Source: Candidatus Altarchaeum sp. | Lineage (GTDB): Archaea; Altiarchaeota; Altiarchaeia; Altiarchaeales; Altiarchaeaceae | Length of the DNA: 12,351 bases | Assembly: GCA_018260755.1 (NCBI GenBank) | Contig: JAGTWP010000040.1 | Location: 1 to 12,351, forward strand | Reading direction: 5' to 3' | Shown: positions 3,413-10,169 of the stretch, in pieces | Position numbering within the stretch: the first letter of the stretch is position 1 | Layout of the letters: each line of letters begins with the position of its first letter | Notes under the pieces: model-generated | The model's database searches: none | What the model was told of the DNA's origin: nothing | The model's input: only the letters and a program-made list of their open reading frames with translations | Program-made: the position numbers and the translations under genes

Positions 3413-4414
3413 ATGAAAGCAATAATAACAAACAAGGAAAAATTGCAGGAAAAATTCAAGGACAATTTTTTAGAAATAGAAAGCAAATTAAACGAATATT
3501 GTAAAATTTTTAATGGAAAACTTTTTTATACTAACAAAACAAAACCTGACGAAATAAGAAATGTTTTTAATGAAGCAGAAAAAGAAGGTGCAACTTCTTT
3601 TGTTATTGTCGGTGGAGATGATGTAATTCCTTTTTTCAGATTAAAAAATCCTGCAAGTGATGATGGAGATGAGATTGTTTATAGTGATAATCCTTATGCT
3701 TCCAAAGACAATGATTATTTTATTCCCGAAAGAAGTTTAGGTAGAATTCCCGATGGAAATAATGCAGTGTTCCTGATATGCGTTTTGGAAAATTTCATAG
3801 GCATCAAAAAAGATAAAAGAAAAGGAAAATTTGGATGTACTGCTTTTGAATGGATTAAAGCAAGTAAAGAGGTCTATAAAGCAGTAAATGGAAGAACCTT
3901 AAAGATTTCGCCGCCAATAAGAAGCAATAATATTGAAACCAAATGGATAAATAAAAAGAAGTTTTTTTATTTCAATTTGCATGGAAGTGAAGAAACAAAA
4001 TACTGGTACGGACAAAAAGGAGAAAATTATCCGGTTGCATTTTCTCCTGAAAATTTGAATGATGTAAATTGCATTAATGTAGTAATTTTTAGTGAGGCAT
4101 GCTATGGAGCAAACATTATAAATAAATGTCTAAACGATGCAATCTCTTTGAAATTTCTTGAAAGAAAAGCAATTTGTGTTGTTGCTTCTACAAAAATTGC
4201 TTATGGTCCATCTGAACCACCAAGCACAGATGCTGATTTATTAGGAAAATTATTCTTTAAAGAGATAATTAATAAGGAAAGTTTTGGAATTGCATTGATG
4301 AAAGCAAAACAAAATTTTGTCGTTGAAAGTTCAAAGAAAGGATATTTGGATAGTTCGGAAAAGAAAACATTGATTGAATTTGTTTTGTATGGAGATCCTG
4401 ATTTGACAATATAA
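3413..4414 (+). CDS. Peptidase C25 (gingipain/caspase-fold) family protein, cytosolic
   Basis: 333 residues without signal peptide or membrane segment. The clan CD dyad is visible: H190-G191 at the end of a hydrophobic strand (FNLHGSEE) and C230 in SEACYGA, with E228 just before it. GGDDVIPF at 67-74, PERSLGRIP and the closing LYGDPDLTI are typical C25 elements; the GDP near the C-terminus is common in the family. Gingipains cleave after Arg or Lys and are secreted with propeptides and sorting domains; none of those is here, so this is a bare catalytic domain acting inside the cell. A product lying 24 bases downstream is lysine-rich and is a possible partner or substrate (inference). The start ATG has no SD. 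Its role among glycosyltransferases is unknown; processing of a glycosylation or export component, or a stress/defence protease, are both possible. Confidence 0.8.
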   Translation: MKAIITNKEKLQEKFKDNFLEIESKLNEYCKIFNGKLFYTNKTKPDEIRNVFNEAEKEGATSFVIVGGDDVIPFFRLKNPASDDGDEIVYSDNPYASKDNDYFIPERSLGRIPDGNNAVFLICVLENFIGIKKDKRKGKFGCTAFEWIKASKEVYKAVNGRTLKISPPIRSNNIETKWINKKKFFYFNLHGSEETKYWYGQKGENYPVAFSPENLNDVNCINVVIFSEACYGANIINKCLNDAISLKFLERKAICVVASTKIAYGPSEPPSTDADLLGKLFFKEIINKESFGIALMKAKQNFVVESSKKGYLDSSEKKTLIEFVLYGDPDLTI

Positions 4415-4438
4415 TTTTTTAGTAACATTTAAATTTTA

Positions 4439-4741
4439 ATGATGGATGATATAATAAAAAAGATAAAGGAAAAAGTTATAAAGGAAAATCCTGAATTTAA
4501 GGATGCAGAAATAGCAGTAAAGGAAGAGGTATTAGAAATTCCTGGAGAGATAAAGGAAAAGATGAAAAAGATGGGAAAAGAAATAAAAGAACTTCAACCA
4601 AAGCAAGGATTTGAAAAAAAGAAGATTAAAACAATAACATTTAAAAGATTTGCAGTTGCAGAAGACGGAGCAAAAATTCCTATTGTTTTACGGCTTACTG
4701 TTGATGAAAAAGGAAACATATTAAAAGAAAGTGGAAATTAA
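4439..4741 (+). CDS. Unrecognised 100-residue lysine/glutamate-rich protein
   Basis: I do not recognise this family. Of 100 residues, 22 are Lys and 15 are Glu. Residues 1-58 look helical and charged, possibly a coiled coil (KEKMKKMGKEIKEL). Residues 59-100 alternate like beta-strands (KTITFKRFAVAEDG, then IPIVLRLTVDEKG). It has no Cys and no membrane segment. It starts with ATGATG and lies 24 bases after the peptidase gene and 3 bases before the next glycosyltransferase, so the three are almost surely co-transcribed. The proximity to a C25 peptidase suggests a cofactor, inhibitor or substrate; the gene could also be an unrelated operon passenger. It is a real gene judging by its tight packing and strong codon pattern. 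Confidence 0.7.
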   Translation: MMDDIIKKIKEKVIKENPEFKDAEIAVKEEVLEIPGEIKEKMKKMGKEIKELQPKQGFEKKKIKTITFKRFAVAEDGAKIPIVLRLTVDEKGNILKESGN

Positions 4742-7398: not shown

Positions 7399-7493
7399 AA
7401 ATAGCGATTTTATTACCTGATTTCTCAGGATATTGTGAGGATGCAAGAGTGACTAAACTTCAGGCAGAGGATTTTTTTATTTGTATATTCTAA
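7395..7493 (+). pseudogene. N-terminal fragment, probably of a family-4 glycosyltransferase
   Basis: 32 codons starting at the ATG that overlaps the radical SAM stop by 4 bases. The first 27 residues contain MKIAILLPDF and then RVTKLQAEDF, a first strand and helix typical of the acceptor domain of GT4/GT-B enzymes. After about base 7476 the sequence turns into T-rich DNA (FICIF, stop). A complete GT4 enzyme has about 350-400 residues. The start is normal and coupled, so the gene was cut by the insertions and rearrangement that follow. The family call rests on a very short stretch. Confidence 0.55.
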
Positions 7494-7758
7494 ATATAAT
7501 ATTACATGACTATCGGCTCTTGACAAGTTGTAAGAAAACTAAAAAATTCATCTCCAATTTTTAAAAAATTTGTGTTTTTTACCTTCAACTTTTACGTTCT
7601 CTTACAGCCCGTTGAATTGCAAGAATTCCCTAAAGTTTAAAGGTTTTATATGAAACTCAAAACACCTTCCTGCAAGACTTTCTTTTGATTTTTTCCTTAT
7701 AAACTAAACAGCGATTCTGAACCGGATATGATTATCTTAAACCGTAACTTTGCTGATT
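7494..7758. other. Gene-free rearranged stretch
   Basis: Nothing on either strand reads as an intact gene. The part next to 7759 is the 3'-flank of the minus-strand transposase remnant, so the end of that element should lie somewhere here. An imperfect inverted repeat at 7528-7607 (listed separately) is the only structure I can point to. Confidence 0.5.
7528..7607. repeat. Imperfect inverted repeat, about 80 bp
   Basis: TTGTAAGAAAAC at 7528-7539 pairs with GTTCTCTTACAG at 7596-7607 (10 of 12 bases), enclosing about 56 AT-rich bases. The pattern with CCC immediately outside the right arm is like IS or MITE ends, but the arms are short and no target duplication is clear. Confidence 0.35.
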
Positions 7759-7946
7759 TTAAGTAATTGGTACTCCTACACTCTCAATAACTTTCTTTAT
7801 TTTTTTAGGTATTTCTGATGTTATCCATTTATCTCCTATTTTGAGTTTATGTACTCGCGAAAAATGCATAAGAATGTCCTTTGGAGAATTATTCTTCAAC
7901 ATTTTTTTATTAACCAACAAGTTGTAAATCCCATAGTAAAATATAA
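7759..7946 (-). pseudogene. Transposase, C-terminal remnant
   Basis: On the minus strand, 62 residues run from the edge of the inverted-repeat element at 7947 down to the TAA at 7759-7761. They include FYYGIYNLL, NSPKDILMHFSRVHKLKIGD and TSEIPKKIKKVIE, the look of the C-terminus of DDE (IS4-like superfamily) transposases common in archaea; the exact IS family is not assigned. Upstream coding is lost: beyond 7947 the frame meets a TAG inside the terminal repeat. So a transposase gene was cut, and the 101-bp element either inserted at the break or marks a deletion end. Confidence 0.6.
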
Positions 7947-8047
7947 GTAACTATTCAGAGGGTACAAAAATTTACCTGTGAAAATTTCAAAAAATTTAAA
8001 AAAGTCAAAAAATTTACCTTTAATTTTTTGGGTGGCTGAATAGTTAC
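7947..8047. mobile_element. 101-bp MITE-like element with 12-bp terminal inverted repeats
   Basis: It starts GTAACTATTCAG (7947-7958) and ends CTGAATAGTTAC (8036-8047), a perfect 12-bp inverted repeat. Inside is an AT-rich stretch with a direct repeat AAAAATTTACCT at 7966-7977 and 8008-8019, and no coding capacity. The outer GTAA resembles IS66-type ends (recalled, not searched). The 8-bp flanks (AAATATAA and ATATATTT) do not match, so no target duplication is visible. It could be a non-autonomous element or an IS with its centre deleted. Its last 17 bases recur at 168-184. Confidence 0.7.
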
Positions 8048-8098
8048 ATATATTTATATATAATCCTAATAATTTATATTAAAACTGCGTAAGTCCTA
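8048..8098 (+). repeat. 51-bp repeat, copy 2 (probable IS end)
   Basis: Matches 14-64 at 50 of 51 bases. Its last 13 bases (8086-8098, TGCGTAAGTCCTA) are the exact reverse complement of 12314-12326. It starts directly at the right edge of the 101-bp element and ends 11 bases before the next gene, so it now forms that gene's upstream region. Confidence 0.82.
8053..8060 (+). promoter_or_regulatory. Archaeal-type TATA box inside the IS end
   Basis: TTTATATA lies 49 bases before the start codon at 8110. With the usual archaeal spacing, transcription would begin near 8080-8086, giving a leader of about 25-30 bases. An identical box is in the first repeat at 19-26. The call depends on the host being archaeal. 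Confidence 0.35.
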
Positions 8099-8109
8099 AG
8101 AATAACAAA

Positions 8110-9190: not shown

Positions 9191-9909
9191 ACCAATTAAA
9201 TAAATGCGATATATGTGGAAGTGAAAATTTAGAATTCGTTGAGGTTGTTCATGACTACAACAGAGGATTTAAAGGAAATTTCAATTTGTACAAATGCAAA
9301 AACTGTGAATTAATGTTTTTAAATCCTCAACTAAGTGTTGAAGAAGGTCTGAAGTATTACACTTCTGATTATTATCAAAGGATTGATGAAGGTACAGGCA
9401 TACAAAAGATTATAAAAAATTTTACATTTTCCCTGCAAAAATTTTATGCCAAAAATCCAAATATTTTCAGGATTCTTTTCCCGTTTTCTCAATATGTCAG
9501 AGGAATAGAAATTATTTCAAACGGAAGATATTTGGATGTTGGTTGTGGTAATGGAACATTTCTTTACACAATGAAAAGAATAAATCCTTCCGGAGAATAT
9601 TACGGTGTTGAACCGGGAAATTTTGATGAAGAAGACATTAAAGCACACGGACTGAATGTAATCAGGGGAACTTTAGAAGATGCTCATTATCCGGATGATT
9701 ATCTTGATGTAATAACTTTAAATCATGTTTTTGAACATGTTCCAAATCCATCGGAAACAATGAAGGAATTAAAAAGAATTCTGAAGCCGGGAGGAATTTT
9801 AATAATTGCCGTTCCAAATCGTAATTCATTTGCCTATAAAATTTTCGGTAAATTTTTTTATCAGTTAGATGCTCCGAGACATTTATTTTATTACTCTGAT
9901 AAAAATTAA
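9187..9909 (+). CDS. Class I SAM methyltransferase with zinc-ribbon N-terminus (frameshifted; N-terminal part)
   Basis: 240 residues. C7xxC10 and C37xxC40 form a small zinc ribbon. The Rossmann methyltransferase core follows, with the SAM-binding LDVGCGNG at 116-123, YGVEPG, ITLNHVFEHVPNP and LKPGGILIIAVPN. Such ribbon-methyltransferases are frequent in glycan clusters and methylate sugars or modify sugar nucleotides; the substrate is unknown. The DAPRHLFYY segment near the end normally leads into 80-100 more residues; here a TAA at 9907 cuts it off, and the rest is found in another frame from 9906. The start overlaps the remnant at 9125-9190 by 4 bases and has no SD. Confidence 0.82.
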   Translation: MNQLNKCDICGSENLEFVEVVHDYNRGFKGNFNLYKCKNCELMFLNPQLSVEEGLKYYTSDYYQRIDEGTGIQKIIKNFTFSLQKFYAKNPNIFRILFPFSQYVRGIEIISNGRYLDVGCGNGTFLYTMKRINPSGEYYGVEPGNFDEEDIKAHGLNVIRGTLEDAHYPDDYLDVITLNHVFEHVPNPSETMKELKRILKPGGILIIAVPNRNSFAYKIFGKFFYQLDAPRHLFYYSDKN

Positions 9910-10169
9910 AAATATATATTTCAAAATTTAATTTTAAACATAAAGTGAAAATGAGATACGGTGCATTTGGGGATCAGATAACTTTTATTGTTTCAGGATT
10001 ACATTGTATAAGTTCAAAAATAGGAAGAAATATTTGGATAGGACTTCATGAAAAGATAGCAAAAGGAAATATATTCATCATTATGATTTATGGATTTTTG
10101 TATCTTGCATTAACTCCTTTAACTTTATTATTAAATCTTTTAAAATTTGGAGACAGTGTTGAAATTTGA
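9906..10169 (+). pseudogene. C-terminal part of the same methyltransferase, shifted frame
   Basis: 87 residues from the TTA at 9906 to the TGA at 10167, with no start codon of its own before the GTG at 9945. KFNFKHKVKMRYGAFGDQI continues the methyltransferase fold (the usual helix plus strand after the DAPRH motif), and a hydrophobic helix near the end (IIMIYGFLYLALTPLTLLL) would tether the enzyme to the membrane. One extra A in the run at 9901-9905 would join it to the first part, giving a protein of about 328 residues. Either a true frameshift or a homopolymer sequencing error. Confidence 0.72.

Follow-up and report, generated by a model that had tools for sequence, protein, structure and literature searches.

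Nearly all that is known of family C25 peptidases concerns, to our knowledge, secreted enzymes with roles in virulence or scavenging. Those of known specificity, gingipains among them, cut after Arg or Lys. Control of such enzymes has precedents: RgpB is held inactive by its prodomain, Arg126 of which sits in the S1 pocket, and legumain, a clan CD protease, is inhibited by its own C-terminal domain (PMC4357240). Cystatin E inserts a P1 Asn into the S1 pocket of legumain, and caspase-9 is targeted by the C-terminal tail of NleF (PMC7863939). Here we analyse a C25 gene and the small gene behind it in a 12,351-nucleotide stretch of DNA (hereafter the window), which is contig 74 of a 1.3-Mb Candidatus Altarchaeum genome.

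The C25 gene and its surroundings in Altarchaeum

The first gene of the pair (3413..4414, + strand) encodes a gingipain-type cysteine peptidase of 333 residues, assigned by Pfam, homologues and fold. It matches Pfam Peptidase_C25 (PF01364) with an E value of 5.2e-10 and 39.5 bits, against a curated cut-off of 23, and aligns with relatives at 28-44% identity across the full domain. His190 (codon 3980..3982, + strand, in an NLHG motif) is invariant in an alignment of 110 sequences, and Cys230 (codon 4100..4102, + strand, in an EACYG motif) is 98% conserved there. Both residues are intact in the window, as the original prediction had read them, and both are near-invariant in the family, the exceptions being a few catalytically dead relatives in Chloroflexota. 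The surrounding NxHG and ExCYG motifs are likewise common to C25 relatives with few exceptions. The window protein is a catalytic domain alone, with no N-terminal prodomain and no Ig-like or secretion domain. Its N-terminus, MKAIITNKEKLQEKF, has no signal peptide by eye, in agreement with the secretion signal having been called missing.

After 24 bases an open reading frame for a 100-residue protein follows (4439..4741, + strand), assigned by HMM and HHalign as set out below, and 3 bases separate it from the next gene; reading frames and gaps are those first proposed. The 22 lysines ascribed to the small protein were also counted. They make up 22% of its residues, against 5-12% in the other proteins of the window. 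Pfam identifies glycosyltransferases, a nucleotidyltransferase, a sugar-nucleotide epimerase and a B12-type radical SAM protein around the locus, and the glycan setting described for the pair therefore holds in the window. Farther along (9909-10169), a methyltransferase-like frame breaks off at 9909, and what looks like its C-terminal part is read in another frame from 9945, a possible frameshift or broken gene. About 710 bases (7399-8109) carry no convincing gene in an otherwise tight gene string.

By C25, the closest relative is Candidatus Altarchaeum sp. HURL_140, with 85% identity. Its C25 gene also lies downstream of a glycosyltransferase gene, but a PIN-domain gene (PF16289, L012:4311-4922) stands between. 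In this sister genome (G003), in which a partner was sought, the contig stops within the C25 gene. An empty site was sought in other Altarchaeum genomes, where the downstream glycosyltransferase had no close counterpart.

We obtained 80 C25 loci by scanning about 85,000 species genomes, and a search of plasmids turned up full-length relatives from Rhizobium, Bradyrhizobium and Novosphingobium. The C25 tree divides into a group of Pseudomonadota, Bacteroidota and allies and a second group of Altarchaeum, WOR-3, TA06 and Chloroflexota. Within it the Altarchaeum pair forms its own branch, and the tree thus singles out no bacterial donor for the Altarchaeum copy; the module probably came from bacteria and would owe its position in the glycan operon to where it happened to insert. 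A model of a Chloroflexota relative (L016), with its extension included and the window sequence part of the underlying alignment, reached a mean pLDDT of 83 and a pTM of 0.83. Compared with gingipain R (RgpB) it gave Z 31.6 over 311 residues; for gingipain K the value was Z 28.9. Searching PDB sequences with the C25 or partner profiles gave nothing significant.

Several C25 genes depart from this pattern. In two Chloroflexota TPR-C25 proteins (L017:3819-6386 and L025:3681-6320) the catalytic Cys is gone (EAGH, NANY) and the products are pseudoprotease-like, and the genes at L060:4706-6224 and L072:4753-6221, in a Chitinophaga and another Bacteroidota genome, are seemingly frameshifted. At about 30 loci, C25 genes of Pseudomonadota and Bacteroidota are followed by a conserved protein of 74-97 residues that bears a GSKSE motif and matches nothing in Pfam (for example L005:7505-7768, L006:7552-7794 and L082:4584-4808), which is absent from the window.

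Fused and split forms of the partner

The small protein matched nothing significantly in Pfam and was hit only at chance level in NCBIfam and PADLOC. PADLOC gave no hit for C25 either, and the defence module once considered for this pair thus matched no known defence family. We found no viral relatives and no phage DNA match.

The catalytic reading frame stops at the end of the domain in Altarchaeum, WOR-3, TA06 and Roseiflexaceae, and C25 of nearly all other relatives carries a C-terminal extension of 100-217 residues. As in the window, the WOR-3 and TA06 enzymes are followed by a protein of 93-108 residues. An HMM built from the three WOR-3/TA06 proteins alone matches the window small protein with an E value of 3e-8 among 13,095 translated frames. 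When the Chloroflexota C25 extension was compared with the combined WOR-3, TA06 and window set, HHalign gave 96.9% (E 1.8e-10). The window protein on its own scored 96.9% against the WOR-3/TA06 set and 81.9% against the Chloroflexota domain in its fused form; column-shuffled controls reached at most 0.49% and reversed ones 1.9%. AlphaFold predicts the same order of elements in the free partner and the fused domain, namely helix, strand, weak helix and three strands. Because this homologue is fused to the C-terminus of C25 in Chloroflexota, the small protein is, as judged by profile comparison, the C-terminal partner domain of C25 itself, encoded in trans as a separate gene.

For homology to the C25 extensions of Pseudomonadota and Bacteroidota, also considered, there was no profile signal (HHalign 0.2%), although position and basic C-terminus agree. 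Fold searches with the partner, with a cystatin/NTF2-like or propeptide-type inhibitor fold as candidate, returned weak matches, with Foldseek E values of at least 0.12 and a best Z of 6.7, to designed proteins. Propeptides of the M4 and M36 families reached Z 5.5-5.7; these and affimers are among the middling matches and are not decisive.

Pairing of C25 with the partner is seen across phyla, in WOR-3, TA06 and Chloroflexota besides Altarchaeum. In the WOR-3 phylum, C25 is present in 43 and the partner in 40 of 147 genomes, and all 40 partner genomes are C25-positive (Fisher p about 7e-33, without correction for common ancestry). The two genes share contig and strand in 37 of these 40 pairs and lie within 63 bp of each other in 34; they are on different contigs in G336, G337 and G338. 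Weakly matching partners adjoin C25 in two of the three partner-negative WOR-3 genomes, and in G339 a C25 gene was present and no partner was found. The operon order is C25, then partner, with reading frames that overlap or nearly overlap. In a set of 247 relatives and other archaea, the partner gave a convincing match only in the window's own genome.

In the main clade the outer neighbours of the pair encode V-ATPase subunits C, F and A, and elsewhere they are a prepilin-peptidase-like gene, a permease and MnmG-like or ribosomal genes; these names were read from sequence, except for the V-ATPase C subunit, which Pfam confirmed. Since flanking genes vary in this way, the glycan operon is incidental: the unit is the pair, not its surroundings, and a glycan-specific module was rejected. 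The original prediction had found the pair unexpected in a polysaccharide locus and proposed a search beyond such loci. That the genes belong together is upheld: the pair recurs in several phyla although its neighbours change, and the two genes co-occur almost without exception; the link to glycans proved local, given the V-ATPase, prepilin peptidase and permease genes found elsewhere.

Partner-like and C25 genes also occur apart. Two WOR-3 C25 genes without an adjacent partner (L149:979-3173 and L151:2094-3793) lie beside an apparent ECF sigma factor and anti-sigma factor. A Chloroflexota partner-domain gene with no C25 neighbour (L154:4351-4626) has sugar-epimerase and glycosyltransferase-like genes nearby. 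Directly behind an FtsZ-family gene, Anaerolineae carry another stand-alone partner domain with a Ser-Arg/Lys end (L029:7716-9211, L100:197-1608, L107, L109 and L110; L112 is similar). At L029 this copy shares one gene string with a TPR-C25-partner fusion and a gene for 438 residues.

The C-terminal residue of the partner and its possible role

Lysine content ranges from 1 to 21% among partner homologues and is thus no family feature, so the idea of a lysine-rich substrate loses its basis and was rejected. Of the roles first offered for the small protein, as substrate, inhibitor or activator, that of a regulator or inhibitor now leads, on the conserved pairing.

It is the final residue that is conserved. 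With the last six columns left out of HMM training, 49 of 52 separate partners were found to close in Arg or Lys, usually as Ser-Arg or Ser-Lys, and in 53 of 55 the stop follows the last modelled column at one fixed distance of 6 residues. When an initial set was clustered at 45% identity, 13 of 13 clusters, the window left aside, had a basic end. Arg ends 12 of the 15 Chloroflexota fusions, and Arg or Lys ends 60 of 67 proteins in the Pseudomonadota/Bacteroidota C25 group. As background, neighbouring genes end in Arg or Lys in 18-29% of cases and in Ser-Arg or Ser-Lys in 0-2%. Exceptions are the window partner, with a non-basic tail, ILKESGN (4718..4738, + strand), that closes in Ser-Gly-Asn, and the partners at L163, L166 and L174. 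The substitution G258A was considered as the cause of the lost basic tail and rejected; Ala is also found in L172 and L173, where the partners end in Arg.

Retention of the pairing across distant microbes suggests that the conserved partner is probably the built-in control partner of C25. Its fixed Arg/Lys end, the cutting of gingipains after Arg or Lys and the prodomain Arg in the S1 pocket of RgpB together lead us to propose a regulatory partner of intracellular C25 with a basic tail that would plug the active site. Taken whole, this is our best explanation and one towards which we lean slightly. A single protease module would be divided between the two genes, which would supply the intracellular C25 catalytic domain and, in trans, the C-terminal partner. 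We infer that the partner, predicted to be a helix with a four-stranded sheet, would bind the catalytic domain and most likely restrain it. In most relatives the last Arg or Lys would occupy an S1 pocket of basic specificity in the manner of a product-like P1 residue, and release of the tail by some signal would switch C25 on. That the C-terminal Arg or Lys acts as an active-site latch, a role suggested by analogy, seems to us evenly balanced. Against it stands the partner in the window itself, the Gly-Asn end of which suggests that the latch in Altarchaeum would be either weakened or replaced. Two Cys-less Chloroflexota relatives retain the Ser-Arg end, a sign that the tail may be kept for a structural contact and not for inhibition.

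The main rival to an inhibitor is a subunit that activates or scaffolds. The partner would then be required for folding or substrate docking, with its basic C-terminus resting on an acidic structural site. Such a role would suit the retention of domain and tail in cis in active-looking and catalytically dead fusions alike, as well as the 1:1 assembly that is suggested by the enzyme-then-partner order with its overlapping or nearly overlapping frames. However, the exchange of Arg for Lys at the extreme C-terminus fits the P1 preference of C25 better than a generic salt bridge, and the clan CD precedents speak for such domains as inhibitors; we consider an activator rather unlikely. Whether the partner inhibits or activates, it and C25 should bind each other.

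It is improbable that the partner is instead a C25 substrate, or a tag joined to other proteins, with Arg or Lys as a pre-made cleavage end. The C-terminus does fall nearly always at the would-be cut site, and the second stand-alone copy behind an FtsZ paralogue in Anaerolineae, in L029 within the same gene string as C25, would accord with this. Yet the domain is the fused C-terminus of C25 itself in Chloroflexota, and nothing beyond the basic residue resembles a leader or leaving group. Chance could instead have brought two unrelated genes together in a glycan operon, as the wholly glycan-related character of the adjoining genes might suggest. This reading is refuted by cross-phylum recurrence, changing neighbours and near-perfect co-occurrence, and its probability is close to nil. 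The regulatory partner with a plugging tail could also belong to something larger: a widespread intracellular protease-inhibitor system in bacteria and archaea, in which the domain, fused or in trans, would silence C25 with its Arg/Lys end in S1, with free copies at operons of FtsZ paralogues and a logic like that of separase and securin. This broader reading is tentative, and we regard it as doubtful.

Comparison with gingipains and other clan CD proteases

In open-access papers we found no description of the C25-partner pair or of the partner domain. The enzyme belongs to a known family; what is new is the arrangement, a cytosolic C25 whose C-terminal partner, fused or separate, has a fixed basic end. 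A cytosolic C25 with a partner ending in the preferred residue of the enzyme would be a compact model of protease control in prokaryotic clan CD, directly testable with two small proteins, and the partner domain would name a family that is in neither Pfam nor NCBIfam.

Among known systems, separase, a clan CD protease with a basic P1, and the Craspase TPR-CHAT protein, a TPR-linked member of the clan, are related in fold (Z 11-16). They belong to other families, however; securin is unstructured, Craspase is RNA-guided, and the window holds no such parts. Legumain and its complex with cystatin E likewise present a clan CD protease under a C-terminal or cystatin-type domain, with the P1 residue of cystatin E in S1, but legumain is of family C13 with Asn specificity, and the likeness drawn here concerns control. 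Closer are the uncharacterised TPR-C25 proteins of Chloroflexota, which share the catalytic branch and a homologous C-terminal domain. They differ in being one polypeptide with N-terminal helical repeats, some of them having lost the catalytic Cys, and the window partner lacks the Ser-Arg/Lys end that is frequent, though not universal, in the Chloroflexota-type partner domain. With gingipains R and K (MEROPS C25; RgpB 1cvr/4ief, Kgp 4rbm) the window enzyme shares the catalytic-domain fold, as judged from the homologue model, and the His/Cys dyad. Unlike these enzymes, it is cytosolic and free of the N-terminal prodomain, Ig-like and secretion domains, and its kind has the partner at the C-terminus or in trans.
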